From Mesodorylaimus sp. YZB2_4 (taxonomy: Eukaryota > Nematoda > Enoplea > Dorylaimida > Dorylaimidae): a DNA stretch of 64,000 nt. The position numbers and the translations under genes are program-made. The notes beneath the pieces were generated by a model. The model was not told the origin of the DNA. It did not search any database and saw only the letters and a program-made list of their open reading frames with translations. The stretch spans positions 186,001-250,000 of the forward strand of contig JASANH010000390.1 of assembly GCA_030248295.1 (NCBI GenBank), read 5' to 3'. This document shows, in pieces, positions 5,060 to 52,724 of this stretch; position 1 is the first letter of the stretch; each line of letters begins with the position of its first letter.

Positions 5060-5485
5060 TTTCTTTTTTTCCTAAATTTTTTGCCTGCAGCTGGCCAGCC
5101 GTCAAACCTTCTAAGCAGGGCTGTGCGGGGCCGGCACACACAGCAGCGTCCCTGTGTGTCTCCACTAGGAGAACCTCCACACGAGGGCATCCTGGACTGG
5201 ACACTGACTTTCTCGGACGATGGCGGGCGGAATGTGAACCCTGCCGGTGTTCGACAGCCGAGACTGTCTACTCGTCTGGCTTCCATCTCTCCACTCACGA
5301 TCAGAGCAGATCGTCGGTACTAGATGAGTCACCCACGGCCTGGCGTGCAGGGTCAGCGGGGGGTTATGGTTCGAAAACCGACCTCTATCACCGGGGATCG
5401 AACCAAGGACGAGCGCGGCAACTCGCTACAAAACAATATACAAAACAAGACGAAGCGAACCGCGCTGCACCTCCAAGGTGCTCAT
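5060..5485 (-). mobile_element. tRNA-derived SINE, family S1 (minus-strand copy)
   Basis: Read on the minus strand, this copy contains a tRNA B-box-like GGTTCGATCCCCGGTGAT, then a body (GAGGTCGG..CGAACCATAA, GCCGTGGGTGACTCA, GGAAGCCAGACGAGTAGACA, GTCTCGGCTGTCGAACAC) and a 3' part ending near CTTAGAAGGTTTGACGGCTGG. The same order occurs in copies at 41572-41970, 42893-43240 and 57340-57715. No coding capacity. Open frames across it are chance. Confidence 0.8.
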
Positions 5486-5529: not shown

Positions 5530-5665
5530 GATCAGCGATGATCATTTAAGCTGATGTGTCAGTTGGTTGATCGGCTAGTGACGTGGCCTAAGTAACATAT
5601 TGAGGCGCGAATTCGAGATGATCTATTGTGCGCTCGTTATCCGTGTCATCCTTGGTGGTCGATAG
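5530..5665 (-). pseudogene. Relic of alpha-arrestin exon 4
   Basis: On the minus strand this stretch reads KDDTDNER, then LEFAPQY, a stop where the intact genes have a tyrosine/aspartate codon, and ATSLADQPTDT. The intact genes read KDDTDNEHTRGQLEFAP, RYPYYDWATAPADQPTHT. The PPxY-coding start of the exon is not preserved and no exons 1-3 are recognisable beside it. It lies downstream of gene A and is the left-most trace of the arrestin array. Confidence 0.7.
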
Positions 5666-6150: not shown

Positions 6151-9100
6151 TCAGCGAGGATCGTTTTTAGCCGAAGTATGGGTTGATTGATCTGCTGGTG
6201 CCGTGGCCCAATCGTAGTAGGGATATCGGGGAGCGAATTCGAGTTGACCCCTCGTGTGCTCGTTATCAGTGTCATCCTTGATATTGACTCGACCAGTAGT
6301 GGTTTCGGCGAAAGTGGGCGGAGCTAAAACAGAGAAAAAACATGGCTTTTCTTACGTTTACAATCCTCTACTTGTAAGTAAATTTTCACAAGCCATGCCA
6401 TGCAAAGTGCGCCTGGCCTGGGACTGGGAACACTTTTAGCCGCGAGTGGCTCATTGGCAGACGTGGGGCCTGAGGTCCAGCCAATCTGGAGGTCCCAGTT
6501 CCCCCGCACACGTCTTTTTCTCCATGAGTTGAACGAAAAACTGGTCGTGCGTCCTGCACGCTAATCCCCACTGTCAACTTAATAATCCAAAGGCTTGACA
6601 AATTTCTGGCTCGACCTAGTCCCAAGAAAAGTTGGAGTCCAGCTCCAAGAAAGTGATAAAAGTACCAGATGTCAAAAAAGTTGACAATTTTTTTGAAAAA
6701 GGCCTGCTATGACTCAAAACTTTTTGACCAGTCAGTGTATCTTTGCGCTGACTTATGAGCGGCTCTGTACTGACAGTCAGTAATCACTTGAGTCATAAGA
6801 GATGTTGAGTATTTGGTAAAATTACTACCAAAAAGCGAGTTCGGTCGAAATATGGTCATTTCATAGTTCACTCCGGGTCCTCCAAAAAGACTGGTAGCAA
6901 TATATAATTTACCCAAAACTCCACTGCAGACAACAAATTGGAATAAGTTAGCTAATTCAACAAATCTATTTTACCTGCATATGCTGATATGCACGTATGC
7001 ATATATGCACATACAATATGAAATTTTCAAATTATGTTACCCTTAACAAACGACGGGTTATCTCTTGTCTTCTTGGCTAAGAAAAATTATGTCAAGCGAT
7101 GAAAAAGATTTCGATCTCTCCCGAGGGCGATTTAAAAATCTGGCAAGCATTCTCTAAAACTCCACTTACGCAAGCCAGGATACACATCGACGCCGGATGA
7201 CGCTAGTGGTTGAACGACATTGGGGTACATGGGCGGAAATCCTGAGTTCGGTTTGTTTCCATGATCGATACTGAATTGGCGGAAAGTTTGTTGCAATTGT
7301 GGCATCTGTTGGCGCAATGGCACTGAACCGACAGTGAACGGCAAGGTGACAGTGAGACCCAACGAGGGTCCGCCCGGAGTAATCGTGAACTCGATAACAT
7401 AGGAAATGTTGATGACGGGGCAACTGGTCAACGTTATGGGAACAGGAGGGAGACGTATTCCTTCGTTATCCCAAATTTGAGTAGCACCTGGCGCAACCTG
7501 CTCAGATTTCACAGCTTCGCCAAGAATCACCTCTTCCCTCTTCGAGCGAGTGCCCTCATTGTAAGGAGCCATGAAAACGATATTTTGTATCAATCGCATT
7601 CTGACCTAAAAACGCACCAATTTTATAAAGGGTCCAAGAAAGTCACCGAACGACTTACAGATCCCACTCTTCTCGAACTTCTGTTATTGATTTCCGCCGA
7701 CACGGCCACTACTTCTCCGGGTACATAGCCTCCTTTGGGCAATCGTACTTGGCACGTGATCTGGCCAGCTGTACAGCACAAGAACCCTGGCGTTTTCTCT
7801 CCGCTGTTTGACTGTGGTTGGGCAGCAGCTGGGTCGGCATTCAAGTCGAGCGCCCCCAACAGTGTGAACGGACGTTTGGTTTTGTGGTCGAATTTCCACG
7901 GACGATCGATTTTGCACTCGACCAAGTACCGTATGGAGCCATATGCGTTCACGCCTTCGAAACTGCTCGGGCAAGTGGGTGGAAGGGGATACGTGAAATC
8001 GAATGTATGGGTCCCAGCTGGCATGACTGGCGTCGGACCATCGGCTCCGGGTGTATTGCCCCAAACTGTGATCTCGTTCTCAAAGTAGGTCACATGGCCC
8101 TTATATGACGTTGCGCTGCTTCTGCCAGACCAACCTTTAATTGAAAATACGGGGTTATCACCTGTGACAGAACTATGTGACTCAAAGCTTTTGGTTACAC
8201 CCAAAAGGAGCCCCCATAAGTATACCCCCGGTACCTCTTTTTCCACTGGACCCTTTTATAAAGAGGTTTCTTTTGAAGTAAAGTAGCAGGTATCGGAGAC
8301 CCGTGAGAGTTGCTTGAAGAAATACTTTATAACCCCCCCCCCCCCAAAACTAATCTGGATGGAAGCAGGTACTCGGAGAATGACAGTGATTAAAGAATTG
8401 TTCAAAGCCTTTTTAAAAACACCCGTCCTGCGGTTGTAGTAGTAAGTGAGGATCTTTTTCGCGTTTTTTCGTCTGAATCGTGAAGAGCTAACCCGTGCAA
8501 TATGGCTAATTTGGGTTTCATCTCTCAATAAAATCTAGGCCCTCAACTGAACAATTTCAAATATTTTCTCATCAATTGCTTAATTTGGGTTTCTGTTGGT
8601 TGCGTTCTGTGCGCCATTGGCATTTGGCAATTAGAAACAATGAATGAATGAGTGAGCGAGTGATCTTGTGCACTCAAATTTCGAGAGAACCAAAGAACTC
8701 CCTAAATTGCATGATTTGGTTCTGAGCCCTTCGTTGCCCACCTGGGCTTCTGTAAAGTCCGACTCCAAACACACAGTGACAATCCTGATCCTATGATTTT
8801 GTGCAGTATTTGTAAGACCTAGGTCTAGGACTAAAAGTCAGTTATATCGTTGGTTATATCAATCCAGAATGTGCTGAAATGACCGCAAGTCAATGAGCTG
8901 TCCAACGTTTTTTAAAAACGTTGCAGCTCACACCATTTGTGATATACTCCCGTCCCGCCAAACTCCCAAATTTTTTCGCTCTTTTATGCGGCTATGACTC
9001 AATATTGAGAACAATATTACCCGTTACAATATTTTAACCAGACATAAGTGTAAGAGTACTTTCAGAATTCAAAACAATATAGGGTCTTTTATACCTTTTT

Positions 9101-9815
9101 AAGAACGAAGTGCGTGCACCTAGCATCAATGTCGGAATATTATACAAAGAATAGGAATTCAGATTTTTAGCGCCCAGCGCCCACGTTTTGGTGGTCTAGC
9201 CAAAATTTTGGACCGCTGTTTCAGTTATTTCACAAGTCGCCATTTTCATTTTCCAATGGTCCCCACTTTGCTGCCAAGAATTTGGACTTTTTTGCATAGG
9301 TGCTGGAGGTCCAGAATTTTTGCCCCCCCCCCCCCCCCCCCCCCCCAATAATATGTGGGTGCTGAATATGAATATCATATTATTTTTCAATATTCTGACA
9401 TCGATTCTAGAGCGCACCTCATTTTTAAGGGGTCAAAAATCTCGCAGAAAGTTATGGGGTAAAATTTCATATGGGTCGGTCCTTATGCGGTAGAAACTCT
9501 GTCATAAGCTCATCAAAAGCTGGTTTATGGACGACTAAAGAAAAATATCATACTAGTTTTTGAAAGGTGAAGACACGACAGGACCAAAGAGAAACGGAGT
9601 AAACATTTATACGAGTTGGTAATTTACGCAAAGCATCCAGACTTACGTGTTTCAGTCCAGTTTGTGCGCGCATTTCCTGTGAAAGTCAATCGCACACCTC
9701 TCATTTCCATTGGCGCATTTAAGACAATGACCACTTTGCCTTTAAGGATCGTTCCAGCATAGTACACTGCCAAAGGATTGTCAAACTCGATGTCAAAACG
9801 ATCCAGTTTAGGCAT
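6151..9815 (-). CDS. Alpha-arrestin (ARRDC-type), tandem gene A
   Basis: Predicted cargo adaptor with two arrestin folds, working at plasma membrane and endosomes. Four exons on the minus strand: 9647-9815, 7659-8134, 7170-7605 and 6151-6323. All join in frame, giving about 417 aa. Exon 1 (MPKLDRFDIEFDNPLAVYYA) and exon 2 form the arrestin N domain, with the hallmark PPTCPSSFEG..GSIRYLVE.KIDRPW. Exon 3 forms the arrestin C domain (MRLIQNIVF; LPPVPITLTSCPVINISY). Exon 4 holds the acidic tail. Where paralogues B and D have the PPxY motif PPTY, this copy reads PPTF (about residues 361-365), so NEDD4-type WW-domain binding is probably weakened. Exon 2 is one codon longer (EGVNAYGSIR) than in the paralogues, and C.C replaces part of the CMCC block (GFLCC). 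The 1.5-kb first intron holds a 24-nt poly(C) run. The family call is certain; the ARRDC subclass is not. Confidence 0.92.
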
Positions 9816-10659
9816 TTTGCACGACAGTGGATAATCTTGGGATCACCGCTTGGCCTTCCGCCCTAGCCGCCCAGCAGAAGAAAACGGAGGAGAGAAAACT
9901 CCTTCTAGCCTCATCAACAGCCAGTCTACTGGTTCCAGCCCATGTACGCGAGAACGAGAGCGTTGCAAGGCAGGCAGAGCTGGGTTTGTTCGATCGATAT
10001 TAGGCAGCAAAGTGAAGGCGGTATGCGCTGGAACCTAAACCCAACGATAAGGTTTACTCTCCTCTGCTCTCTGCCGATGAGTCATCTGGTCAGCAAGTGA
10101 GGATATCGTTCCAATAGGTCTCAAACGAAATCTCAGAAACTCTCTGCTACAGAGATAGTAACTATTGGTTGAGAGAAACTTTTCTGTGCTAAACTCTTGT
10201 TCTGCTGCCCTGATAAACTGGCGAGGGGGATTTTCACTGACTGGTGCTCGTAAGTCATCAGTCAGTGATGGTGATCACTGATACGATCCCAGTTTAATGC
10301 AGCTACACTATTAGCTAGCTACCCTACAGCCTACCGGCAAAGTCTTGCACATGACATGACATCCACAATGTTTACATTCCATTGCGTTCCTGGCAACTTC
10401 GTTTGCTTCAGAGCTGAGTGAGTAGAATTCCTTAAAACTTGCAAGCAAGTTTTCGAAGCATTCAAGATTGCTTAGCTAGGTTATCAGGTCAAAAACCTGA
10501 CGCTAGAAGAAGTATCGACAAACTCACTAATTGTTGTTGCTGTTCAAAATCATAAAATTTTCGGATTGATTGAAGCCTTTTGCATCAGAACATTATTGGA
10601 GCAAAAATTTGAAATTGCGAAGTATCAATAAGCTAGCACAGAGGGATCGCGAGGCTTCT
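9816..10659. other. Intergenic, upstream of arrestin gene A
   Basis: This is the likely promoter region of gene A. I see a small inverted repeat near 10230-10285 (ACTGACTGGTG...CATCAGTCAGT) but no confident TATA box or known element. Confidence 0.4.
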
Positions 10660-10689
10660 TTTACGCTGCGTGGGTGATCAACGAAAATC

Positions 10690-10815
10690 CTTGAAAGCAA
10701 AACTGTGAGTTGGTTGATCCGCTGGTGCCGCAGGCCAATCGTAACGTGGATATCGAGCTAGGCCCTCGTGTGCTCGTTATCAGTATCGTCTTTGATGCTG
10801 ACTCGCCCTCTGACT
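10690..10815 (-). pseudogene. Second relic of alpha-arrestin exon 4
   Basis: On the minus strand it reads GRVSIKDDTDNEHTRA followed directly by a stop, then in shifted frame a sequence matching the DWATAPADQP region. The PPxY end is replaced by unrelated sequence. The 3' flank at 10621-10690 (AGTATCAATAAGC...GTGATCAACGA) resembles the 3' flank of intact gene D at 21360-21410. It is therefore the remains of another duplicated arrestin unit lying between genes A and B. Confidence 0.75.
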
Positions 10816-10819
10816 GTTT

Positions 10820-11545
10820 TGAACCAGTCTCGCCCGTGTATTTTAAAGGTCCCGCAAAAATGACACGAGCAAACGGCAGCAGCCTCACAAGCAACTCTCA
10901 TTCGTGCATTTGACGTGCCTGTAGCCTTGCCCCTGCATTTGCATTTGCTTGCCTTGCCTTGTCTAGTTCGTATATACACTCTTTAAAGGTCGTGAGTTTT
11001 TGCGAGTCTTCATCAAAAATTTCAGGCTTGGTATCGAATGAGCCAGTCCTGGTTTGGATCAGCATATGGACTGGACGCTGTTTCCAAGATGAAAATGCCC
11101 CGCACCATTCTGTAATCAGAAAAAAGTTGGGTTCTCGTTCGTGTACACTGAACCAACTGTGGTGTGAAGGTTCGAATCAAGCCGCGCAGCCCAGGTGCCG
11201 ATGTGGTTTATAACACGTCTCCACTACGCCGAACCAAGGGGACTCACGCAGGATCGAATGGGCCAGCTACAAACGTCTGGTCGTCGAGATATACACCAAT
11301 CAAACCCAAGCAGAGCCTTTATATAGGCGATGCTCGGGTCTAGAAATTAGGCTTATCACTCCCTCGCATGATAGGAAAACTAGTCAGCTCGGCCTCTCGG
11401 CCCTGACCAGGGAGGAAGACAAATGGTCTGTGCATCTCGGTGCTCACTAGATTTGCTATGCAAAAAGAATGCACTGATCGTGAGCACCTATTACAGTCAC
11501 ACCTTGCAATATATCCTTGTAACATACGTCCGCATACGCACGCAT
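10820..11545. other. Gene-free stretch
   Basis: Open frames are short and unlike any family I recognise. No repeat is recognised. Confidence 0.35.
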
Positions 11546-11547
11546 CA

Positions 11548-11832
11548 AATTTTCGGAAAATCAGCACGGACTTAGTAAACGAACACCAGCTACAGGAGAT
11601 CTGATTAATTGTACGCAAACCATCCATAATTTGCTCAGTCAGAAGACATATTGTGTGGTAATTTTTATCCTCTTGGACGTGCAGGAAGCATTTGACCGAG
11701 TTCTGCATTCACTTCTACTGCGTACTCACTCTGCCCTCCCAGCATCGAGTTCCCACCAAATTAATCAGCTGGACTTATTCGTATTTGAAAGATCGTCAGC
11801 AGTGTGCAATGTGATCTCAATTTTCAAACCAT
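11548..11832 (+). mobile_element. LINE reverse-transcriptase relic
   Basis: On the plus strand one frame reads FSENQHGLSKRTPATGDLI, then TIHNLLSQKTYCVVIFILLD and VQEAFDRVLHSLLL. This matches the non-LTR retrotransposon RT region around motif A (FLD....FDRVWH) preceded by the 'QFGFRK..ST' block. Only about 95 codons survive, a few residues are inserted in motif A, and the frame ends at 11832. It is probably a jockey-like or related clade, but too short to assign. It has no role in the neighbouring arrestin genes. Confidence 0.7.
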
Positions 11833-12617
11833 AAAACCGACCTTCGGGGACAAGCTTACAGTTTTTAGCCAACCGTGGTTTTGATCCGCATCTGACTGTG
11901 AGCTAGACGCGACTTCGGCATACCACGCGACTATATACAGTAAAGCACTATTTAACTACCCGATGATTCCACGAGATGCTGTACATTCCCCACCGCCCCA
12001 TAATACAGTAGGACCTGCCGGTCATGCATTCGAATATTGTCTTCAAGCACACTTTCGATTGTGTTCTATGCTAAGCAAATAACAATGAAAGTGGTATGCC
12101 ACAATTCCAATCATCGCCTGATCTCCAGCACATACAGTACTTGTGTAGTTCTGATATCTGTTCACACATGTATGAAATGCGTGTCTAATGTATTCTGCTG
12201 CGCGCCAGGCAAACGGTAATAACTGACAGCCTTGTGCGAGCCATTGCCTTTCTTCCTTTATCACTGCACACGCCGGAGAAAGAAACCTAAGCGATAGTCT
12301 ATCGTCAGAAATACACCAGTTTCCAGTAGTCCAACACACGGCTTTAAACGGGTTCTCTAAAACAGATCTCTAAACATCTAAAATGATCTAATCAGTAAAA
12401 TAAAAACTTTCCACTCTAAATTGAACAATAACGTTAGTGCACCTATGACCTACCAAAAGATATAACCAGTATTCCACTTGCAAATGCATCAAATAGGCGG
12501 CAACTAATTAATAAACCATGTATAACATTCACGATCAATCACATCTTACTCCTTTGCATACAGCTGGTGAAAACCAAAGGCTGTTTGTCTGATAAGGGAG
12601 TGTTTTTAATCAGCCGA
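11833..12617. other. Gene-free stretch
   Basis: Nothing recognisable; this is 3' flank of arrestin gene B. Confidence 0.35.
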
Positions 12618-15442
12618 TCAGCGAGATGCGTTAAAATCCAAATTGTGAATAGGCTGATCCGGTGGTGCCGTGGCCCAATCGTAGTAGGGATATCGAGGCA
12701 CAAATTCGAGTTGACCCTTCGTGTGCTCGTTATCAGTGTCATCCTTGATATTGACTCGACCCGTTGTCGCTTCGGCATAAGTGGGCGGCGCTAAATAAAA
12801 AAAGCAAATATGGCTTCTACCTCTAAAATAAATAATCGTTAAAGGTAGTAAACTTTCGCAAGCCCATATGCAATCAATGGTGAGCAAATGACTCTGCGCA
12901 GGGCCGAGTGATTGCAACTGAACCACGCCACTAGATACGAGGTAGTGTGCAGCCAAAATTATCCTGGCTTGTTCTTGAATTTTTGCTCCACTTGCATAAA
13001 CCCCTGAACTTTAGCGATTTGGATTATTGACTAAACGACTGGTGCTTCACTGCTCACTGCCCTCTCGAAGTTTCCAATGCAGCTGACTAACCCATCGCAC
13101 TATAGCAAATAATTTGGAAACTTTTCACCGTACTGGTGAAGACACTCTTGGTTTAAAGACAAAATGCTCTGCAGAATCGATGTTGGAACATTAAAATATT
13201 CAGATTCAGCACCAGCCTTTCAGTGCAGGGTACCCAAAATTTTGGACATCCACCATCAATTTAAAAAAGTCGAAACTCTTGATTGCGCAAAGGGACCTTT
13301 GGGAAATAAAAATTTCGACTCCTTAAGTAATTAAGATAGCAGTCCAAAATTTTAGCTGCCCATCATAAAACGTGAGTGCTGAATATGAGTATCGTAATCT
13401 GTTTTCAATATTCCAACATTGACCATTTACAGTGCACTTCTTTTTAAAGTATTTTGTACGTACTCGCATAAGTGCGAAGTATTTGTCATACCTATTCGAC
13501 ACTCTGAACTCCCGTTTCTTCCATCTGGCTCAAGCACTGGCTCCTGCATACTAGGAGCAGTGGACTCATTCTTAAAAATACAGAATTATCAGAAGCTCAT
13601 CGTGCGCGCCCGCAGACACCAATGGGTGCTGTCAAATCATAAACTCACAAACTAAAATTTGTTTTTCTGATGTGACACAAAACGACTAAAGTGCGCGACC
13701 GTTGCGTCTTTCGGGAAAAAAATCTTGATCACAACCTGCAGGCTTAAAAACTCCTATTCGAAATCGAAAAATCTACTAAATACCACAGCTTATCGTTAGC
13801 TGACCTGACCTGTTCCAGCCACTTCGTCAAAGCTCATCACTTACGTAGGTCGGGATACGCATTGAACGCAGGTGGGGCTGTTGGCTGACTGAAAGAAGGA
13901 TCAAAAGTAGGCATTCCTACATTCGGTTTGTTTTCCCAATCATTGCTGAATTGACGGAAAGTCTGTTGCAATTGTGACATCTGTTGGCGCAATGGCACTG
14001 AACCGACTGTGAAGGGAACTGTAACGTCGAAGCTACGAGAAGCTCCGCTTGGAGTGACTTTGAATTCGACGCTGTAATATATGCTAATTATAGGGCAGCT
14101 GGACAATGTTACAGGAACGGGAGGAAGGCGTAGACCCTCATTCGCCCAATTTTGACTGTCGCCCGGCCCTAATCCCTCAGATTTTACAATTTCGCCAAGG
14201 ATTTTTTCTGACGTCCTCGAATGAGTGCTCCATGCACAAGATGCCGAAAAAACAATGTGTTGTATCAATCGCATTCTGACCTAAAAACCTACCGATTTCA
14301 TTAAGGTCAGAGGAGGACACAGAATCGACTTACGGAGCCCACTCTTCTTGAGCTATTGTTACTGATATCTGCCGACACGGCCACCACTTCTCCCGGCACG
14401 TAGCCTCCTTTCGGTAAGCTTACTTGGCACGTGACCTGGCCAGCCACACAGCACATGCACCCTAAAGTTTTCTGTCCACTATTCGCGCGTGGTTGAGCAG
14501 CAACTGAGTCGGCATTCAAGTCGAGCACTCCCAACAGTGTGAACGGACGTTTGCTTTTGTGGTCGAATTTCCAGGGACGATCGACTCTGCACTCGACCAA
14601 GTACCGTATCGAACCATATGAGCCTTCGTAACTGCTTGGGCAAGTGGGTGGAAGGGGATACGCGAAATCGAATGTATGCGTCCCTGCTGGCAAAACTGGC
14701 GTTGGACCATCGGCCCCGGGTGGATTGCCCCAAACTGTGATCTCGTGATCGAAATAGGACACGCGGCCATTATATGAATCAGTGACGGTGCGATCGTTGA
14801 TCCGGCCTGTAAACTTACAAGAGGACGCTCACCGTCAAAAGTAATCCAAATTTCCATGAGGCCTAATAATAATTTGACAGCTGCGGGCTTAAAACCCTTC
14901 AGATTCGCATGCGAACAAAAAAAGAGGGCACTGGTCCAAACCAGTCATAATATCATAGTCTTATTTACTTTCGCCAATTTATTAAAGAGGAAGGTAGTGA
15001 AGCAAGAACCTTTATCAGTTTACAGCAAAACGGTTCATAAAGGCGATAACTGCTCATTTAATCTTGGAAAATAAAAGGAGAGCGCAAAACAAGCGGAGGC
15101 CGCGGTTCGTCGCTAATTGCGACGTACTGAAAGTCCGCGCAGTATAATGGCCACATTGATGATTTTAGTTACAAACATTATCTCAACTCACAATCTCAAG
15201 TTGTCCCCATAGCATCCCTGATATGTTACTACCTACCTTCTAGCCCTTCCTTCTAGTTAGCTACCAGACTTACGGGTTTCCATCCAGTGAGTGCGTGCCT
15301 TTCCAACGAATGTCAGTCGCACACCCCTCATTTCCATTGGGCCGCTTAGTACAATTACCACTTTTCCTTTAAGCGTCGTTCCAGCATAGTATACTGATAA
15401 TGGATTGTCAAATTCAATTTCAAACCGATCCAATTTAGGCAT
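12618..15442 (-). CDS. Alpha-arrestin (ARRDC-type), tandem gene B
   Basis: Same predicted adaptor role as gene A. Exons on the minus strand are 15274-15442, 14334-14806, 13845-14280 and 12618-12790, in the same phases as the other copies (1, 0, 1), giving about 416 aa. The N domain starts MPKLDRFEIEFDNPLSVYYA and includes EGSYGSIRYLVECRVDRPW. The C domain has MRLIQHIVF and LPPVPVTLSSCPIISIYY. The tail starts with PPPTYAEATTG, an intact PPxY motif (about residues 360-364), followed by NIKDDTDNEH and PRYPYYDW. Intact PPxY predicts recruitment of HECT ubiquitin ligases. Introns are 467, 53 and 1054 bp. Nothing is broken. Expression cannot be judged. Confidence 0.93.
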
Positions 15443-17790
15443 TTTGAACTCCAGCGAGCCAAGCTGAAGGCGACGCCAAAGTAGGTTCCGCTATGCAGCC
15501 TGACAACGACAAGTTAGCTTTGGTGAGCAACCTGTCGTAAAATAATTTTTCGAATTCGAACGTTTCTGACGATGAGAGTCACCGCTTCAAGACCTGTTTC
15601 TCTGTCGTTGTTCCAGTGCAGAAACACCAAGAGACTCTATTGACAATAGACAGACCAGTTCCAGTCCTTTTCTCATATGCTGACAGAGAGGCAGCTGGAT
15701 AATTCGATTCATAAAAGCGTAGAAAAGGCGCTTACCACAAGGCTAAAAACAAATAAAGCTTAAGAACGAGGTCCCTCCAGTGAGTCACAGGCAAACGGGG
15801 AAGTCAGTCACAGAGAGCGTGGGTGAAGAGTTGTATTATCAAACCGCTTCAGTACTCTCTACCGCTGTTGTGATCATTGCAGCTTGGGGGGGGGGGCGCC
15901 TGGAATTCCTGGGGTTTGGCTCGAGTAGTTGGCTCGGTAAGGAGGAGCCAGGGCTGTATAAGAGCAGGGCGCCGGGGGAGATCGGGGCTCTCCCTTGTTC
16001 GCTCTCACTCGATTCGTCTCCACCGATTTGTTCTGATTTGTGGGGAGCCACCCCTTTTGTTGACCACCCCATTGGCAGAAGTGTGGGGCGAGTCAGGCGC
16101 CAGCCAGGGACTTCGATTAGCATACTCTCGAAGGGCCCCTGCGGTCGTCGTTTCCTTCGGTTCATACTGGAAGAGTTCAGGAGTTGACTCCACGGCAGGT
16201 GCTTGGTTCGTCTGCGGATTTGTCTGTGGGTAAGATCTAGGACTGTTGAGAATCGTCGTGCATTGTTGTGCTTCGTAAAGGATCCTCTGGTGTTGACTTG
16301 GGTCTTTACTGCGCCATCGACGGTGGAACTGTTCGCCAGCGTTGGCAGCTTAGGACCAGGTGCATTCGACCAGCAGCCAGGCTAGCGTTGCACAGAGCAG
16401 TTGCAGGCACCCTTGGGAGGCGCGGCGAACACGCCTGAGCGGTTTGTTGAGGAATCGGGGTCTTAGTGATCGATACTCTGCAGGAATAAGCCTTTCTACC
16501 AGGCTTTGGCTGTTGAAGACCTTGGACCGCTCGCTTCTAAGATCAGCCCGAACCCACCGGCACGTGAGCGAAGAAGAGCTGTCGCGCTTGCTCAAACCAC
16601 AACATTTTTATAACACCGCTACAGTACCTGTCACGTCATTTCATGTGCTATGCCTTGCTAAAACTCGCACTAAAGGGCGTAGCACAGGAGATTGATTCAT
16701 TCTAAAAACCAATGCGAGTAAAAAGATTAGAAAATGAAGTTTCAATTATTGAAAAAAGGAATTCATGCAAAAATTCTTATCGAGTATTTGCCCAACTGAC
16801 GGTTGACAAAAGGATTGAACTAATCGATCGGCTTTCATTCCATGGGATATTGCTCGTTGCAAGTACTCGCACTGTGAAACTCTTTACAGTGTAAATAATG
16901 CGGAAGAAAAAAGCTTGTCGTTAGTGTCCACTAACTAAATTTTTTTTCTCATTTTTCTGGATCAAACTCGACCGCAAATTAGAAGACTCCCCAAGCTTCC
17001 ATCGTCAGTTCTCGACTCGTCTTCCTCTCGCGGGCTGCTAGGCTCAATAATCTTAAATTTGCGAGGTCCTTCTTCACAACCTTTTTTGTCACTTTTAATA
17101 CTGGTTCCTCTCAAAATTTTCAGTTTCAGTGCTTATCAGGCCATTTTCAGAGACGCAACTTCTGACCTTTGAAAGATCAATTAATAAAAATTGGCATGGT
17201 CTCTCTCGAGTACAGTATCTCCACGAATCCACTGGGCGCTTCAAACGTGGCGCAGTGCGGGCTCGAAGCTGACATCTGCGCCCATCTGCTGTACAACATT
17301 GGCATGTGAGTGTGCATGATATGGTGGGGTGGACTGTCTGCCAGGCCCATTTGTCCTTGACCGAGTGCACCAAACATTTTTCGATAGGCATAGCGACCTG
17401 TTGGTCAAAACATTTAGCACCAGATCAAAAAGTTTGCATCTTCCCTTTCGCATCTTACAGACTTTATGGAAAAATGCTTTAGCTGATGGCGTCGTAATTA
17501 CCAAAACAACACAAGAAGTATTTCGGATCGCACACGGCGACCAACACAGACACATTGGCGGATGCAAACGTCAAGAGTGAGACATACCAGAATTTTGTCA
17601 TCAGTGGTACTCTGCCTGTAAATAAGCTTTTTCGAAAAGAATCACACATATTGCTTGAAAATCTGACACCCAAAAACACGCAAAATAATGCAAAAAGGCA
17701 AAAACCTGGCTAAACCTACTCCATAAGTTATCTGAAGCATGTGACCAACAATCAGGTCGAACATTTCAATTTCATGCAGTGTTTTGCTAC
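15443..17790. other. Intergenic between arrestin genes B and C
   Basis: Holds a 12-nt poly(G) run (15885-15896) and a dispersed repeat at 16400-16640. A TATAAG motif occurs at 15956-15961 in a GC-rich context, possibly the promoter of a decayed element. No gene is recognised. Confidence 0.4.
16400..16640. repeat. Dispersed repeat, family R5 (copy 1)
   Basis: Shares, in order, ACACGCCTGAG.GGTTTGTT, GGGGTCT.AGT..TCGATAC, GACCTT.GACCGC, TTCTAAGATCAGC and CACGTGAGCGA with 52725-52940 just beyond the BEL/Pao fragment. Non-coding. It may be part of an LTR. Confidence 0.6.
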
Positions 17791-19729
17791 TCAGGTACTA
17801 GAATTTTTATCAACAAAACTGCGGGCTGGTTGATCAGCTGCTGCCCAAGTCCAATCATAATAAATATATCGGGGCGCGTATTCGAGTTGACCCCAATTAT
17901 GCTCGTTATCAGTGTCATCTTTGATATTGACTCGTCCAGTAGTCGCTTCAGCGAAAGCGGGCGGAGCTAAAACGGCAGGTGACTACGGCTTACATTAATT
18001 GATAAGAAAACAGGCGAGGCTTTACTTACGTAAATCAGGGTAGCCGTCTTTGCCTGCAGGATATGAAGGCGACAATTGTGAGTAAAGATTCATCCCTTCA
18101 TAAATGCTTAATTGACGGAAATTTTTCTGAAATTTTGAAATCTCTTGGCGCAATGGAATCGAGCCGACAGTGAACGGCGTGGCAACTTCAAAGCTGATTG
18201 AAGGTCCACCAGGAGTCATGTGGCATTCGACTTCGTAGGAAATTCTTATTATAGGGCAGCTTGTCAATGTTACCGGAACAGGAGGGAGAAGTAAACGCTC
18301 GTTTGCCCAAGTTTGGCTACAACCTGGCCGTACTTCCTCAGACTTCACAACTTCGCTTAGAATTTTTTTCGCCCTTTTTGAATCACCTCCCCGCGTAGAA
18401 GATGCCGAAAAAACCACATTTTGTATTAATCTTATTCTGAACTAACACATCACCAATTCAATTGAAGGTAGAGGAAGAGAAGATCAGAATCGACTTACTG
18501 ATCTTAAAATTCTCGAGCTTTTGTTATTGATTTCTATCGACACAGCCACCACTTCTCCGGGCACATAGCCTCCTTTCGGTAAGCTTACTTGGCACGTGAC
18601 CTGGCCGGCCACACAGCACATGCACCCCAACGTTTTCTGTCCACTATTTGCATGCGGTTGGGCAGCAGCTGGGTCGGAATTCAAGTCGAGCACTTTCAAC
18701 AGTGTGAACGGACGTTTGGTTTTGTGGTCGAATTTCCAGGGACGATCGATTCTGCACTCGACCAAGTACCGTATGGAACCACTCGAACCTTCGAATGTGC
18801 TCGGGCAAGTGGGCGGGAGTGGATATGTGAAATCAAATGTATGCGTCCTAGCTGGCATAACTGGCTTTGGGCCGTCAACGCCCTTTGGATTGCCCCAAAC
18901 TGTGATCTCGTCTTCGAAATAGGACACGTGACCATTGTAATAATAGATGACGTCGTGATTGTCGACCCGGTCTAAGCACAAAAACAGGTTTTATATCGAT
19001 GACAGAAGAGAATTTAAAATACTTTTGTCATGGAAGGTGATGAGCATGCAGTATGCATCTATTCTTTCAAACCCTGAATAATAGCTGTATCATTCTTTTT
19101 ATCGTGAAGCAGAACACTTTTCTCAGTTTAAAAACCGTCAGCTGAAAGTACCGTGCTTATTCAGAAACTGTTGCGGAATGTGGACAGACGGATGCGCTCA
19201 AGCCGACTTCGATCGATACCCAGCTTTTCTAATCTTTGCTGCACCTACTTTCTGACCTCCCACAAAACTCCCGCTCATAACTTATCTAATGGACAGGGGA
19301 AAAGATTTACACAGGGCCCCGGTCTCATGAAAGCCAATGCTGCTGCTAACAGTACATAAGGCAACGGAAATGAATTTGAGGCACCAAGCAGCAGGTCCGT
19401 GGTCTGGCAAAAGCTCATGGAGCGTAGGACGATATATCTTTCTTCAAGGCACCAAACTGCTAGAAGCTGTTTTCAAAAACAGCCACAGATGAGGCCGGGG
19501 GGGGGGGGGGCGATTAAAGTTTTATTGAGCTTAGTGATAAGCTAAGGAGTTTAGACTTACGGGTTTCCGCCCAATTTGTGCGGGCCTTTCCCGTGAATGT
19601 CACTCGCACCCCGTTTATTTCCATCGGTTCATTCAATATAATAATCACTTGCCCTTTGACCATGGTTCCAGCATAGTACACGGATAGTGGATTGTCGAAT
19701 TCGATGTCAAAGCGATCTAACTTCGGCAT
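17791..19729 (-). CDS. Alpha-arrestin (ARRDC-type), tandem gene C
   Basis: Exons 19561-19729, 18499-18971, 18030-18441 and 17791-17966 join in frame, giving about 409 aa. It is the most compact and diverged copy: introns of 589, 57 and 63 bp, and a C domain 8 codons shorter (LSPSYPAGKDGYPDL before the tail). The N domain keeps SSGSIRYLVECRIDRPWKFD; the C domain begins FRIRLIQNVVF. The tail reads PPPAFAEATTG (about residues 352-356), so the PPxY tyrosine is replaced by phenylalanine and threonine by alanine. The second tyrosine-rich motif is altered to PRYIYYDW, and the C-terminus (DQPARSFVDKNSST) is unlike the others. The frame is fully open, so it is probably functional, with weakened or lost NEDD4-type binding. 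Confidence 0.9.
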
Positions 19730-21403
19730 TTTCAGGTAGGCAATCTGATCTTGAGACAGGGATTTGATATGCTAGCAGTAACGAGTTTTAACTGAAAGCT
19801 CTATTTACTTTTGTTGCTCAGGTGCAAACATTGACAAGACTCGGCCACATTGGCATGGAAGTGGGTTCTAGCTCCATCTATTTTATTCAGTTACCTTGAA
19901 GACTGGTAGGCGGCTAGTCACGGCCTACTTCTGAAACTCACGAAGGGATAGCAGAGTGATGGTTTAGCTCCACGACAGTGCCAAATCGATTCGTCGAGGT
20001 GAAAGCGTCACCCGGCCGGTCGCCCAGCCTGGTCAGGGAGGTCGATAGAATTCCTTGGCATACTAGGCCAGATCACAACGACTGTAACGACGCTTACAGG
20101 CCAACAATATTCGCCTTAATCACCACCAAGAATAAGATGGAGTTATTCGACAAAATTTTTGGCAAAGTGCGAGTAGAGTTTACTGGTGCGAAAAGATCCG
20201 CGCGCTCATCATTCTTTTAGCATCATTTCCGAAAAGTGAACATTCTATTGTTTTCAAAGCTAGCTCGAGCTTTTCTTATTGCATGAATACAGAGCTTGCA
20301 TGGCGCCCTGCAAGTATGGGGCGAGCATACATGGCGTGGGCTAGCTTCTGCGCACCTATCACTGCACTGGTTCAGGGATCTCTCCTAAGTCAGGGCAGGA
20401 ACGAGACGAGAGCGACATCGAGGGTCGAGCGACCGGTTTGGTTTGCAGACATCGGTTGAGTCCCTGGTTTTAACTGCTCTGTGAGCACTTCAGGTTCAGG
20501 TCTATCAAAACGTCCTTTATGAATGAGAGTCTGCTATGTACGGCCCTTGTGGTGTGCGGGCTACAAGAAACTTATCACGGCGTTGTGTACTGCGTGGGCG
20601 CGTTCTTGGCTTGAACCACTGGTCATCCCTAAATTGTACACGGTAAGGAGAGAGAACTAATGATTTCACGGGCATGACGCCTGTCTGTTTCAAAATACAT
20701 GGCGCGTTATAAATCATCGATTTTTATCATGATCACTGATACAACCACCTGACACAGAGATCTGAGGGTGCACAAACAAGAAATTATGCAATTAAAAGAT
20801 CGTAATTTGCGGTACCCGACGCGAGCGGTGCAGCCTTGGAGTTTCTTCCCCCTAGTGCCAGACACTTTGGTCTTTGAAAACTCCAAAGAAGCCTAAGAAA
20901 CATTACTTGTACATGCCCTAGGTCAAACTGACACGTCAGGTTCTCCTCCATGCTGCTTTTGCAAATTTGCAAGAGTTTTGTAAGCCATTACTCTCAGATT
21001 CAAGTCATTCAGATTCAATCCTGAGAAGATTTCTTGCCCAACGGTAATTCCAAGACACAGCATCGCACAGACTACAAAATTCGTCTGTCAGAGACTCCGC
21101 GCCCTCACACCTACGAATCTACGAAAACTGGCAAGATACGAAATGACTGCAATTGCCTGAACTCTGGCATTCAAGAAAGAAAACATTTGCAACAGCGATC
21201 TTGAAGATATTGGACTGCAAATACGAGTTCCACACAGAACCAGTGGCATTTCACCAAATAAGCCACTGAACATTCGGCCGTATAAAAGCAGCAAATAAAA
21301 AGCGATAAACAAAGGCGTCCTATGTGCGCGCTAAAACAGTAAAAATTTTAAAGTCCATACTATCAATAAGCAGGCATGCAAGGATCATCCAGTGCTTCGG
21401 TGA
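19730..21403. other. Intergenic between arrestin genes C and D
   Basis: No gene recognised. The last about 45 bases (21360-21403) resemble the 3' flank of the relic at 10690-10815, as expected for duplicated arrestin units. Confidence 0.4.
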
Positions 21404-23791
21404 TCAACGAGAATCGTTGTGAGCCAAAGTGTGGGTTGGTTGATCGGCTGGTGCCGTGGCCCAGTCGTAGTAGGGATATCGGGGAGCGAATTCGAGTTGA
21501 CCCCTCGTGTGCTCGTTATCAGTGTCATCCTTGATATTGACTCGACCCGTTGTCGCTTCGGCATAAGTTGGTGGAGCTAAAAAGGAAAGCAAATATGGCA
21601 CTCTTTGATTTGATTCCATCTACATAGTATTGTTACGAAGTCACCTCCACCAGCTGATAGTCATACATACATGTAATCTGATCTGTGCCACGAAGGCTCA
21701 TTGTCACCCACACCTGCGTGAGCCTGTCTCGTGACTATGTATACCTTATATGTACAGTGGTGCCAGCTGAAGATATATATCGGAGAGAGGCTGTGGTGGG
21801 GGCAGTTTTCATATCGTTGCCACCTTAGCTCCTTCATTGCGAGTTTTATGCAGGCAATAATGCGTAAGCACCCGCCAGGTCACTGGATGTGATTCGTCCT
21901 GTTGCCTGCTAGACTCACAATCAGCAGGCAGTCGCCGGCTAGTCGTCAGGTGACAGGCGCGTGTCTGCTGATCTCAGGCGACAGTCCAAAGGCGGAGGTA
22001 TTATATAGCATACTTACGCAAGTCAGGATATGCATCGGCACCGGGTGGCGCAGTTGGTTGAACGCCAGCAGGATAGGATGGCGGCAGTCCCGAGTAAGGA
22101 TCGCCCCCATGATCGATGCTGAATTGGCGAAACGTCTGCTGCAATTGTGGCATCTGTTGGCGCAATGGCACTGACCCGACAGTGAACGGCAAGGTGACAG
22201 TGAAGCTGAACGAGGGCCCACTCGGAGTGATCTTGAATTCGATGACGTAGTAGATGCTGATAATGGGACAGTTGGCCAGCGTGAGAGGAACAGGAGGAAG
22301 ACGTAGTCCTTCGTTATCCCAAATTTGGCTATCACCCGGGCCCACTTCTTCTAATTTCACAGCTTCACCGAGAACCATCTCGCCCCTCTTCGAATGAGTA
22401 CTCCCGCCATGAGACGCCAAGAAAACAATATTTTGTATCAATCGCATTCTGACCTAAAAATGCAAAGATCTGATCGAAAACATAGGAAACCCACACTCAG
22501 CTTACGGCGTCCAGTCCTCTTGAACTATTGTTATTTATTTCTGCCGACACGGCCACCATTTCTCCCGGCACGTAGCCTCCTTTGGGCAATCGTACTTGGC
22601 ACGTGACTTGGCCAGCTGTGCAGCACATGCACCCCAAAGTTTTCTCTCCACTGTTTGACTGTGGTTGGGCAGCAGCTGGGTCGGCATTCAAGTCGAGCGC
22701 CCCCAACAGTGTGAACGGACGTTTGGTTTTGTGGTCGAATTTCCAGGGACGATCGATTTTGCACTCGACCAAGTACCGTATGGAGCCATACGAACCTTCG
22801 AAACTGCTCGGGCAAGTGGGTGGAAGGGGATACGTGAAATCAAATGTGTGCGTTCCAGCTGGCATGACTGGCGTCGGGGCATCAGCGCCCCTCGGATTGC
22901 CCCAAACTGTGATTTCGTGTTCGAAATAGGTCACGTGACCATTATATGAATAAGTAACGTGTCGATCGCCAGACTTGCCTGAAACACAGATCAGCAATCG
23001 CTTTACTACAGTGGTCAGAAAAATGGAATTTGATATGATTGTAATCAAGGCCCACTCTGCACATGCATATACATTCTAACGAGGGGTCGTCTCAGGTCAC
23101 TCGCAGAATCGGCACATCAAATGGCCATCCTTTGTTGGTTCCTTCCCACGAAATTTCAGTATTCGATGTTTTAAGGGGAGCCAAGAGTCAGCCAATACTC
23201 TGAGTCTGTATTACAGGAGGACGGGACTCACCTGGCAATCGATCCTCTGCGCGGAGCCAGGATCTGATAGCGCCGCCCGTCAAGATGATGTTTCAGCCAT
23301 GATCAAGGACGGAAGACTTGGTTGGCTGCCCTGGGTTTTTGGCCTGGGGCAAGCACCACCAGTGGGCTATTTATACTAGAGGAGTATCCTACAGTATGAA
23401 CCACCAGTGGGCTATTCATACTGGAGGAGTACCCCAGTATGAATAGCCCACACGTATTACAAGGGACAACCCTGCGTCACCAAGCTGGCTGCATCAAAAG
23501 GTAAAAGCACAGCCTCCACATATCTACGAGCCTGAATGCCCATATGCCCTGATTCATCAGCATCTTCCACCTTCCCAGTTCCCTGTGTAACTCACCAGCC
23601 CCCCCCCCCCCACGTGACTTACGGCTTTCCGTCCAGTGCGTGTGCGCGTTACCATTGAACGTCAATCGCACACCCCTCATCTCCATTGGTGCATTCAGCA
23701 CAATGACCACTCTGCCTTTCAGCATCGTCCCAGCATAGTAGACGGACAACGGGTTGTCAAATTCAATGTCGAAATGATCCAACTTCGGCAT
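21404..23791 (-). CDS. Alpha-arrestin (ARRDC-type), tandem gene D
   Basis: Right-most intact arrestin copy. Exons 23623-23791, 22506-22978, 22018-22453 and 21404-21576 give about 416 aa. The N domain starts MPKLDHFDIEFDNPLSVYYA. EGSYGSIRYLVECKIDRPW and KRPFTLLGALDLNADPAAAQ match gene A most closely. The C domain has LPPVPLTLANCPIISIYY and QQMPQLQQTFRQFSIDHG. The tail carries PPPTYAEATTG (intact PPxY, about residues 360-364) and PRYPYYDWATAPADQP. Predicted role: recognise membrane cargo through the arrestin domains and recruit a NEDD4-family ligase for its ubiquitination. Intron 1 (644 bp) contains an R3 repeat, a 17-bp-arm palindrome and a 13-nt poly(C) run right behind the splice donor. Unlike gene C, the CMCC block is intact. 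Confidence 0.93.
23215..23400. repeat. Dispersed repeat, family R3 (in arrestin D intron 1)
   Basis: Contains TCAAGATGATGTTTCAG, GGAAGACTTGGTTGGCTGCC and CACCAGTGGGCTAT. The same blocks, in order, occur at 28545-28900, 29920-30030 and 54790-55060. Non-coding, probably a SINE or MITE family. Confidence 0.6.
23408..23450. repeat. Perfect 17-bp-arm palindrome
   Basis: TGGGCTATTCATACTGG is followed by a 9-base spacer and its exact reverse complement CCAGTATGAATAGCCCA. A diverged direct copy of the left arm lies at 23369-23390. It sits inside intron 1 of arrestin gene D at the end of the R3 repeat. Confidence 0.8.
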
Positions 23792-24120: not shown

Positions 24121-27100
24121 TCATCCATCACATAACCCAGCATTCCTATTTCCCTCATCCACGTCCTCCGATTCACGTCGTTTCCTTCTTTGACAGCGCG
24201 GGCACACACGTTTGTGTTGTTCGAAGCAAATCCTGAAACACAGCCTACTATCTGCCAATTACAACTCCGAGACTGTCTTACCTGTGAAATAAGGCAGAGC
24301 AGGTCCGGCACGAACTGACGAAGTCATCAAACGAGAATAGGACCGTGGAATCACTGCACAGCTCGCAAATATAGCCGTTGCCTCTGCAAGTCTGAAAGAA
24401 ACCATTTTCATATTCTTGCACTGATAAGGTGATAACATCCTGCAGTGATTAGAGGCACGCAATTACTTCTACTGCAAATGCTGCAGAATTGATGATAAGA
24501 CAGACACTTTACCAACATCCAATCCCCGTCCTTGCCAGCGCTGAAGGATTTTAGTCGAAGCGAGCATGTACTTGTGGGTTGCCTTTATATATATATCAAA
24601 CAGCCTTGTAATTATGCACTCATAATATGCCATGGCGCTTGGGTTTTTAGAAGGTAGTGCGATTGTATGCCTTACACCAGGTAAGCACAAGGTTTTGACC
24701 GTTTAGTCAATTTATCCATACCTCTTGATCTCATGGCCTTGAACTACTACTGGCCTTTGTGCTTACAAATACATTACACAGAGGAGGCGAGGCATAGTTA
24801 ATGCCTCTCTCTACTACGCCTCAGTAACACGCCTAGAGTGTGTTGCTCCCTGCTACCTTCTCCAACGTACTGTATGCTAATTCGGCCCGTTTCACCTGCT
24901 ATGCAGCTCTTACAGGGCTCAATCGTCAAATATCGACAACAATGACTTTCCCTGGGTGATCTACTGTAGGTTCTCAAGCTCTCCAAGCTCGGCATGTGAA
25001 TGAAATAGCAACCGTCTAATCCTAGCCACACCTGACCGTCAGATCTGAGGCTACCCTAGTTAATCACTTACCGGGCACTCTCTGATGTGCTTCGCAAATA
25101 TTTCCACCGTTTCTCTTAGATGCCGTTCCAAAACGCCCGACTGCAAATCCAGTAAATCCTGGATCGAATAAACGTCCACATTGTCGATAAAGTGAGTATA
25201 CGGCTTGAGGAGCGAGAACAGGCGCAGATGGGATGCAGCCTCTCGGCAACACATTATGAATGGTTTCATAATTATAACGTCTGACCGTAACTTCTAAAAG
25301 CAAAGCAATAAAGGCAGGGGTTCGATCCCTACTCACAACTCAAGTTTTGTGTATGTGTCCATTGCAGGGTTCATACAAGGAGGGAGAAATGATTCTCCCT
25401 GATTTTCAGGGTCACACTGTACCAGCACTTCTAAACCAATTTCAACTGATTTACTGATTTCCAACAGGCGCATAGAAAAGGCGGGCGATTCAAAATTGAA
25501 AACGTCGAAATGCAGTCTCTCAGTTTTCCCTGATTTTCCAGGCACTTTTAGATTACCCAAATTAACCCTGCTAGTGTAAAGGTACCCTAGCAGCACCACG
25601 TCTGCATTGCACACATACACGCAGCTCACCTTGACATCCCTCAATTCCTGGACGTAATTGAACAAATGCGAATTCAGTGCCTCCAATCTCAACACTGGTT
25701 TCCTTCTCATCAGCATCAGAAACTGCAATGCTTGGCGACTGACTGGTCGTGGTTGGAAATCCCAGTTGCGAATTAGTCGAGCCGGTATGACGGTGCCATC
25801 GTTCCAATGACACTTCTGGCAATAGTACAAGCCAGTATAATCGCACAGGCGCCCAACTGTGAACCCGTCATTTTCATCGATCGATAATCGCGTGCGACAT
25901 TCGGCACAACGGTATTTTTGGCTGGCCAATCCTTTCTCGGGACATATGTCCAGTATATAGACCGGATTATCCACCACCTGCATGAGGAACGTCGACCTAG
26001 ACTCCGATTAGACTTACACAGGAACTGGCATTGTTAAATCCTTGGCCTATCCTAGGGGATACTAGGTGACCAAGCCTGGCAGAGTAGGAGGGAGCTTTCC
26101 GATCGAAGTCGGCGGGACAAAAACTCCGACTGGAGCAAGCAAGTTTTATGACTATACCTACGGCTGAAACATCAACCCGAGGGGTCGACGTCTCCCAGCT
26201 AGCGGAGATCAATTACTCTATCCCACTCGCCTTGGCCCACCAGGCACGAGGGTAACAGCCACCAGGCCCTTATAGGGACGCCCCACTTTACAGTACACTT
26301 AACTAAGATACCTTCAAGGCCACACACGCTCGAAGAATCAAATTAGCGCATCTTCGATGGCAAAGGTACCCGCAAGCCGTGCATTGATACGATGGCTGCA
26401 CGAGCGACCAAATCATCTGTTCGCATTGATCACAGTATCGATTGTTCGCAGGGATGTCATCAGCTGGTTTCTGATAGGAAATGGTCGACGGATCGACGAA
26501 ACGATGACCATTGATGTTGGCTATTGCATGAATGGGCTCCTCTGGTCCTTCCTAAAAAGTGCACAGTTCGCTCTCGGTCCTTACCAAATTGGTGCGTGTC
26601 CAACCAGTGTTTACAAACGGCACCAGTTGGGCATCCTGTGCACCAGTATTTTGGCAAACCCTACCACATCTATGTGTGACAGACAGCCGTACAAAGTCGT
26701 ACAGCCACTCTCCCAAAAACCTACAGAATCTGGCGAGATAATGCATCCTGCAAAGGTATGGACCTTGTACCCGCTTTATCCAAAAATTCCCCTCACTCCA
26801 AAGCCAAAGGAGGCCCCAATACCACCTGCAACCGTTGGCCGGCAGGCGTGAGAGAAGGCACCGACCAACGACTGGAGCAAGGTCTCGCGATCATACCCGC
26901 GACTGAAACATCAACCGGAGTGGTTGACTTCTCCCAGCTAGGGAACCCCTCACCAAGGCCCGCTAACCGTGGCCTGCAAACTTACCGCACGCACCCACCC
27001 TATTAGTTACTTTCAAGCAAACACACTACTGTATTACTGAGAGGGCACGACAGCTCACCTTCAAATCCAACAACTGTTTCCTCAACGACACCAACACACG

Positions 27101-41571: not shown

Positions 41572-41970
41572 GTCGCGCTGCGGCCGCGGTGGTGCAGCGG
41601 TTCGGCAGTCGTCTCTCCGTATTGCTTGGCAGCCCGCGGTTGGGGCCGGGTTCGATCCCCGGCGATGGAGGTCGGTGTTCGAGCCATAAACCCTCGCTGA
41701 CCTCGCACGCCATGCCGTGGATGACTCGAGGTGCTCCGAGTGGAGAGGCGGAAGCCAAACGAGGAGACAGCGTGAGAGGGAAAGCAGACCACGTGCCATC
41801 GTCTGAGGAAGTCGGTGTGCAGTCTAGGATGCCCACGTGTCCTAGTGGAGACACACAGAAGGCCGCTCCCTGCACTGCCTTGCTTAGAAGGTCTGAGTGG
41901 TTTGAGTGGCTGGATAGAGGAAAATGAGCTTCGGCTCTCAAAAACTCCAACAGAATAAATGAAAAATACT
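41572..41970 (+). mobile_element. tRNA-derived SINE, family S1 (plus-strand copy)
   Basis: The most complete copy. The head GCGGTGGTGCAGCGGTTCGG contains an A-box-like element and is followed by the B-box-like GGGTTCGATCCCCGG 60 bases on. Then come GAGGTGCTCCGAGTGGAGAG, CGGAAGCCAAACGAGGAGAC and CTTGCTTAGAAGG. It ends near AAAACTCCAACAGAATAAAT. It truncates the reading frame of the neighbouring membrane-protein sequence. Confidence 0.85.
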
Positions 41971-42892: not shown

Positions 42893-43240
42893 TCACTGAG
42901 GGCTCGGCATTCGTCTCTCCGTATTGCTTGGCGGCGACTGGCTGTACTCGTTCCGGGTTCGATCCCCGGTGATGGAGGTCGGCTTGCGAGCCATAAACTC
43001 TCGTCGACCTTTCACGCCAGGCCGTGGGTGACTCACCCGGTATCGCCGAGGTGCTCCGAGTGGAGAGACGGAAGCCAAACGAGGAGAGTCTCGGCTGTCG
43101 AGCACTGACAAGGATCATAACCCGCACGCCATTGTCTGTCCAGTCGGTGTCCTGTCCAGTATGCCCTCGTGTTCTAGTGGAGATGCTTAGAAGGGCTGAC
43201 TGTTGGCCAGCATTTGGCGAAGCGAGGTTCGGCCCCCAAA
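42893..43240 (+). mobile_element. tRNA-derived SINE, family S1 (third copy)
   Basis: Contains CGTCTCTCCGTATTGCTTGG, GGGTTCGATCCCCGGTGATG, GAGGTGCTCCGAGTGGAGAG and ACGGAAGCCAAACGAGGAG, in the same order as the copy at 41572-41970. The first about 20 bases of the head are missing or altered. Confidence 0.85.
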
Positions 43241-47275: not shown

Positions 47276-47529
47276 GTCGGCTCTGGGAAGGATCGAAGAG
47301 GCTCAGAAACACGAGACAGTTGAGCACGACGATGAACACACTGATAACTGAACTCAACGTTGTTCACTGCATGCAGCGGTGACTGACTTTACGCTTCGAC
47401 AGGGGTGTATTCCCCAGTCTGGAGAACTGGAGCGGAGGCACGCATTGATTGCTCTGACAGTCTCGATTTGCCTTGACAATAGCCTACGTTCTAATGCCAG
47501 GCCCGTTAGTGCCTTGGGTTGACCGTCGA
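47276..47529. other. 5' flank of the vWA-like gene
   Basis: The promoter of the 45728-47275 gene should lie here. No clear core element is recognised. Confidence 0.3.
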
Positions 47530-50500: not shown

Positions 50501-50696
50501 TTAATGAAATTCAGCATAAGTTGTCCACGTTATATTTTCCTGCTACTAATGGCGAGGCGGAGAGATTTGTTCGTCCTTTTAAGAATGGCATGAAAGCTCC
50601 TCGAGTAGCTAACTCTAATTTGAAAGCGGCGGAGTTTCTTTTGCTGTACAAAATACATGGGCTCGTGGGTACACAGAGCAGTTGTGGACCACACGG
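47530..50696 (+). mobile_element. Decayed Ty3/gypsy LTR retrotransposon (interrupted)
   Basis: The probable end of the 5' LTR and primer-binding region is near 47870 (ACATATTGGCGACGTC). Gag follows from about 47960 with a frameshift near 48085. Two CCHC knuckles (CYRCGDTRHWANKC; CNKCSKLGHLAKVC, 48270-48370) and a protease (LLLDTGAKVSIL, near 48520) are intact. The reverse transcriptase lacks its central palm: after about 48940 the reading jumps to the thumb (SLRYLGHVIDRTG), then a stop. RNase H (GLDCDASSYGVG; FAYASKTL-like FASKTLSASERNFSQIEREA) follows to 49615. A minisatellite splits RNase H from integrase. Integrase (49990-50680) has HIDFCGP and NGEAERF, but the second catalytic Asp region reads VSENGPQF, Glu for Asp. 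The 3' end is lost at the BEL/Pao junction. It cannot be active. Confidence 0.9.
49794..49932 (+). repeat. Minisatellite inside the gypsy pol region
   Basis: Units of about 19-22 bases of the type CGAGATAAGGAGCTGACTGAGG (variants with AAACTG, GGACTG, CCTAGG) repeat about six to seven times. In the pol frame the unit reads ARDKELTE, and the last unit runs straight into the normal pol sequence VIRYIECGWP, so the array seems to have grown from the coding sequence itself. Confidence 0.8.
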
Positions 50697-52548: not shown

Positions 52549-52724
52549 CTTCGAGTCTGGTGCTTTACAGTAATCAAGAGAAACAGAAGGAACAGACCGT
52601 TCAGGTCAACAGAGAAAACGCACACCTCGCATGAACAATACCAAATCACATATCATTTAGAGGTGTAAAGTGTTCCATTCTCGGGCATTGTGCAGTAGGC
52701 GAGGCGCTGCTTCCTCGTATCAAT

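Follow-up and report, generated by a model that had tools for sequence, protein, structure and literature searches.

Why would an animal keep four alpha-arrestin genes side by side? The question is posed by a 64-kb stretch of contig JASANH010000390.1 (hereafter the window) from the nematode Mesodorylaimus sp. YZB2_4, where an earlier note described a tandem array of four near-identical arrestin adaptors and took it for a retained local expansion rather than fresh duplication debris. From gene models built on the DNA sequence of the window alone, we consider it on balance probable that the array arose long ago by tandem expansion of a single alpha-arrestin gene and is still maintained, its copies being cargo adaptors that have diversified in how they grip cargo and dock a ligase. 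Each protein would most likely act as an adaptor with a two-lobed core that binds membrane cargo and the membrane, and with a C-terminal tail whose PPxY motifs recruit a ubiquitin ligase of the Nedd4 family; the recruited ligase would lead to ubiquitination and sorting of the cargo. Two kinds of divergence probably explain why the copies were kept, one in the crest loops of the core and the other in the PPxY docks of the tail. This reading builds on observed gene structures, domains, purifying selection, location of the variation and motif states, and from these we infer cargo binding, ligase binding and the reason for retention.

The array runs along the minus strand over positions 6151-23791, exactly from the stop codon of gene A to the ATG of gene D, where the earlier note had placed it, and consists of four complete gene models, lettered A-D and transcribed in the order D, C, B, A. 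Gene D (21404-23791, 416 amino acids) has exons at 23623-23791, 22506-22978, 22018-22453 and 21404-21576; gene C (17791-19729, 409 amino acids) at 19561-19729, 18499-18971, 18030-18441 and 17791-17966; gene B (12618-15442, 416 amino acids) at 15274-15442, 14334-14806, 13845-14280 and 12618-12790; and gene A (6151-9815, 417 amino acids) at 9647-9815, 7659-8134, 7170-7605 and 6151-6323. The exon lengths and identical phases already reported are borne out: exon 1 spans 169 nucleotides (nt) in all four genes, exon 2 spans 473 nt (476 in A), exon 3 spans 436 nt (412 in C), and the introns fall in phases 1, 0 and 1 throughout. A fourth exon, missing from the earlier list, measures 176 nt in C and 173 nt in the other three genes. 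All 12 introns have GT-AG borders, and the four frames are open, as claimed before, over 409-417 amino acids. Intron 1 varies from 467 to 1512 nt and intron 3 from 63 to 1054 nt; intron 1 of gene D includes an imperfect palindrome of 45 nt (23407-23451).

The alpha-arrestin identity proposed for the four genes is confirmed by their domains. Each protein matches Arrestin_N (PF00339, E 5.6e-37 to 3.4e-40) and Arrestin_C (PF02752, E 1.4e-28 to 1.6e-29) above the curated Pfam cut-offs and over almost the full profile, and matches this strong and this complete in four of four proteins are not due to chance; a sub-threshold match to Rgp1 in B and C was disregarded. The best solved relatives are Caenorhabditis elegans ARRD-6 (7usy_J, E 5.4e-30), ARRDC3 (1.4e-24) and TXNIP (5.2e-23). 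Among the nine distinct PDB sequences that protein D matches at E <= 1, eight are ARRD-6, ARRDC3 or TXNIP, one is VPS26C (E 0.81) and none is a visual or beta-arrestin; by sequence similarity, then, the array proteins group closer to the alpha-arrestins than to the visual and beta-arrestins.

The four copies are not the near-identical set that had been described. Amino-acid identity is 68-81% across the six pairs, synonymous divergence (dS) is 0.58-0.85 by NG86 (0.50-0.81 by YN00), and the ratio of nonsynonymous to synonymous divergence (dN/dS), a comparison the earlier note had proposed, is 0.18-0.28 in every pair. It follows from these values that the copies fall short of near-identity, are too diverged for haplotypes and are under purifying selection; they are old paralogues, a fresh duplication is ruled out by dS, and the view of a retained expansion stands. 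The note had allowed that the copies might be collapsed haplotypes of one locus, and we weighed an assembly artefact of this kind, with diverged haplotypes or misjoined copies. The dS values lie far above usual allelic divergence, the introns and flanks are mostly dissimilar between copies, and the four copies follow one another in order on a single contig. The first two of these points led us to reject an artefact, for which no evidence emerged, and we hold it to be very improbable. Of the puzzle that the note raised, the keeping of four adaptors stands and their near-identity falls, and the puzzle largely dissolves since the copies differ most in the crest loops presumed to dock cargo and in the motifs that would dock a ligase.

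The first of these differences lies in the arrestin core, taken as residues 1-313 of protein D. In ARRD-6, the loops at residues 82-85 (N domain) and 249-256 (C domain) are described as crossing each other at the central crest (PMC9605866), and we placed their counterparts through a phmmer alignment to ARRD-6 and these published coordinates. The N-domain loop corresponds to residues 58-61 of D (22965-22976, minus strand), inside the decamer where the core varies most, and the C-domain loop to residues 227-234 (22394-22417, minus strand), overlapping the second variability peak; the decamers at these two separate peaks start at residues 57 and 229, in that order. Ranked by variability among core windows of the same size, the N crest is 6 of 310 and the C crest 10 of 306, and their combined variability is matched by 0.13% of window pairs. 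Nonsynonymous divergence is 0.42-0.94 in residues 55-66 plus 226-241, windows set after the variability ranking had been seen, against 0.07-0.15 elsewhere in the core. By analogy with arrestins at large, crest loops may bind cargo in alpha-arrestins, and because these presumed contact loops have changed fastest, the cargo range probably differs among the copies. This role for the crest contrasts with the contact described in ARRD-6, where strands of the C-domain beta-sheet touch CALM-1 and the C-edge loop faces the membrane (PMC9605866).

The clustering of the variation also bears on a simpler account, in which the copies are biochemically equivalent, were kept for expression specific to tissue, stage or condition or for dosage, and carry sequence differences that are tolerated drift. 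Upstream of the genes, similarity between the copies is lost no more than about 13 nt from the ATG (self-blastn, E 1e-4), so the promoters have diverged, and the large introns are unequal, both as this account would have it. Drift among equivalent copies would, however, spread variation evenly rather than cluster it in the crest loops, and it sits poorly with a tyrosine-to-phenylalanine difference that stands out from a largely invariant stretch of tail. We regard equivalence as possible and less likely than diversification in cargo grip and ligase docking, to which that tail difference belongs.

Two sites in the tail carry or have lost a PPxY motif, all on the minus strand; counterpart coordinates for the first were derived from the exon coordinates. 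Site 1 lies late in exon 3 and has the sequence PPSY in D (22073-22084), PPMY in A (7225-7236), MPTF in B (13900-13911) and SPSY in C (18061-18072). Site 2 occupies the opening codons of exon 4, where both D (21563-21574) and B (12777-12788) have PPTY, A has PPTF (6310-6321) and C has PPAF (17953-17964). Strict PPxY motifs are thus present at both sites in D, at the first only in A, at the second only in B and at neither in C, so that three of the four proteins carry at least one. Since the docks are distributed in this way, ligase recruitment probably differs among the copies too. Around site 2, residues 359-398 form the most constrained stretch among those measured, with 32 of 40 columns invariant and dN/dS of 0.05-0.15 over the six pairs, and on these grounds the tyrosine-to-phenylalanine difference in A and C looks unlike general decay.

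Studies of mammalian proteins suggest what these states could mean. A pair of PY motifs is reported for all mammalian alpha-arrestins but ARRDC5, and co-precipitation of ARRDC3 and ARRDC4 with Nedd4 ligases requires these motifs (PMC3517545). The tyrosine of the second PPxY in ARRDC3 can be phosphorylated, and in the mammalian Y394F mutant the association with c-Src is reported as nearly abolished while WWP2 binding is reduced but kept (PMC12213294). Moreover, activation of Nedd4-type ligases has been reported to require clustered PY motifs on membranes (PMC5892558). Because of these reports, and by analogy with them, ligase docking is predicted to be best in D, less in A and B and least in C, and A and C are predicted to be non-switchable by phosphorylation at site 2. 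A more specific proposal, which we offer tentatively and think rather unlikely as it stands, is that the array forms a graded set of ubiquitin-ligase adaptors with a nearly common architecture, diversified crest loops and a PPxY valence of 2, 1, 1 and 0 in D, A, B and C, in which phenylalanine would exclude A and C from a phospho-switch of the ARRDC3 type.

Several observations weigh against diversification in cargo grip and ligase docking. Exposed loops are variable in most proteins, and once three residues are added on each side the crest windows rank lower, the N crest at 7 of 304 and the C crest no better than 23 of 300. In the crest windows dS is also high or saturated and dN/dS is 0.35-1.01 in the five of six pairs for which it could be computed, so that positive selection on the loops, which was considered, is not demonstrated. 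As to the tails, the SPSY of C could count as a motif, since the first residue of a PY motif can vary (PMC2515105), and PY-like APRY or VPRY is present in all four proteins. Loss of a motif need not change function through ligases, given that worm alpha-arrestins without PY motifs are reported as functional, with known roles (PMC10590129). Four sequences are also insufficient to show that the pattern of motifs was selected.

A further possibility is the usual birth and death of copies within a redundant family, with D, and perhaps A, functional and C and B slowly being lost. Two relics of last exons, neither mentioned in the earlier note, lie on the minus strand and suggest such turnover. The first, between B and A at 10667-10808, has 70-73% nucleotide identity to the last exon of the intact genes and a broken frame, ending in a stop after ...KDDTDNEHTRA; the second, downstream of A at about 5532-5654, has 74-78% identity and an in-frame stop. 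Both point to additional copies, or partial duplications, that once existed and then died. Read instead as possible alternative last exons, the first reaches its stop after the shared KDDTDNEH block and the second has its in-frame stop, and a PPxY end was unrecognisable in either when the letters themselves were read. Searches of the 64 kb with the four copies (tblastn and blastn) returned no further array copies beyond the two relics and weak short matches. The uneven tally of residues unique to one copy (47 in C, 27 in B, 19 in A and 10 in D), the shorter exon 3 of C and its lack of a strict PPxY also fit a gradual loss. So does the absence of AATAAA, ATTAAA or AATGAA within 600 nt past the stop of C or D, a weak sign because D, which shares it, is otherwise the most conserved copy. 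Set against these points, all copies have open frames and intact splice sites, and the pairs that involve C keep dN/dS at 0.23-0.28. We judge decay of C and B to be improbable and continue to favour a maintained set of diversified adaptors.

The history of the set can be traced in part. Among 84 quartet-informative sites, 43 favour the unrooted topology AD|BC, and a tree rooted with ARRD-6 and TXNIP groups B with C (support 95/96); support for the array as a clade in that tree is just 80/85, and a long-branch warning applies. On the AD|BC topology, the tyrosine/phenylalanine difference at site 2 requires two changes. Where exon 4 begins, four neighbouring sites, including two within the tyrosine/phenylalanine codon, follow the pattern AC|BD. 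Silent divergence is unequal among exons in all six pairs (chi-square, uncorrected p 0.0001-0.03), with exons 2 and 4 lowest for most pairs. Gene conversion among the copies, at which both features hint, was examined with a run test on shared silent sites and rejected, the longest runs giving p = 0.24-0.88 in all six pairs (10,000 shuffles). In a self-blastn of 4500-25500, non-exonic similarity was scant and comprised short stretches beside the exons, intron 2, which is itself short, and small intron repeats.

Compared with known systems, the array combines familiar parts. ARRD-6 (7USY) shares both arrestin domains with the array proteins, and its C-edge loop NCCWCC (around W197) lines up with GCMCC in three copies (B, C and D) and with GFLCC in A; this cysteine-rich loop is described as possibly palmitoylated (PMC9605866). 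The relationship is distant, the end branch of ARRD-6 measuring 2.7 changes per column. Mammalian TXNIP and ARRDC2, ARRDC3 and ARRDC4 share both domains and carry two PPxY motifs in the tail, whereas in the array only D has two strict motifs, with phenylalanine at site 2 in A and C and at site 1 in B. A tail motif of nematode and sea-urchin alpha-arrestins, (Y/F)APXYP(Y/F)Y (PMC2515105), is fitted exactly by FAPRYPYY in D (21467-21490, minus strand) and, identically, in A; B (FVPRYPYY) and C (YAPRYIYY) are each one residue off. Taken with the match to ARRD-6, this motif points to a nematode as the likely source, although its occurrence in sea urchin keeps it from being proof.

The alpha-arrestins of Drosophila (CG18744-CG18748 and others) are likewise a multi-member family in which some proteins have PPxY and others lack it. 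The consecutive gene numbers of CG18744-CG18748 suggest a tandem cluster, and the fly expansion is presumed to be independent of the array. One study of Drosophila alpha-arrestins reports 12 baits, eight of them with PPxY (PMC10945707). For C. elegans a total of 29 alpha-arrestins has been reported, including some predicted pseudogenes (PMC5657022), and roughly half of the arrestins in worm and fly are described as lineage-specific (PMC2515105), so that an expansion of this type is to be expected in a nematode. Our literature search, which left subscription journals mostly outside its reach, recognised no description of a tandem array of nematode alpha-arrestins, and a pattern search for relatives gave 74 matches in genome contigs and 65 in viral contigs, none of them confirmed. 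Expansion of alpha-arrestins in worms is already published, and the novelty is accordingly modest: the array is a real, old and retained expansion of a known family.

Elsewhere in the window, the neighbouring genes on the minus strand encode a Rubicon homology domain (25333-26007) and a G-patch domain (27545-28330). On the plus strand lie an immunoglobulin I-set domain (36974-37348), where adjacent open reading frames suggest a larger cell-surface gene, and a DUF2465 domain (55644-56150). An open reading frame of 524 amino acids (45728-47302, minus strand) starts with a signal-like segment, contains a single hydrophobic stretch and has a tail rich in lysine, with no Pfam match over any curated cut-off; another, at 58852-59208, has no Pfam match, and its resemblance to a nematode secreted protein is an impression that was not used. 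Retroelement pieces at 48177-50745 (plus strand), with zinc knuckle, reverse-transcriptase RNase H, integrase zinc-binding and integrase core domains, are probably Ty3/gypsy-like. Overlapping open reading frames at 50615-52652 (minus strand), with weak, sub-threshold Pfam matches, resemble a BEL/Pao-type retroelement. An interspersed repeat family occurs at 5079-5438, 41649-41896, 42922-43172 and 57385-57687, with 68-77% identity between copies.

The array bears on why worms have so many alpha-arrestins. Should diversification in cargo grip and ligase docking prove the wrong reading, the array would be an ordinary retained gene expansion. If it is right, a compact array with a common fold, differing crest loops and docks that differ in number and type would amount to a natural experiment on PPxY valence and on the PPxY tyrosine.

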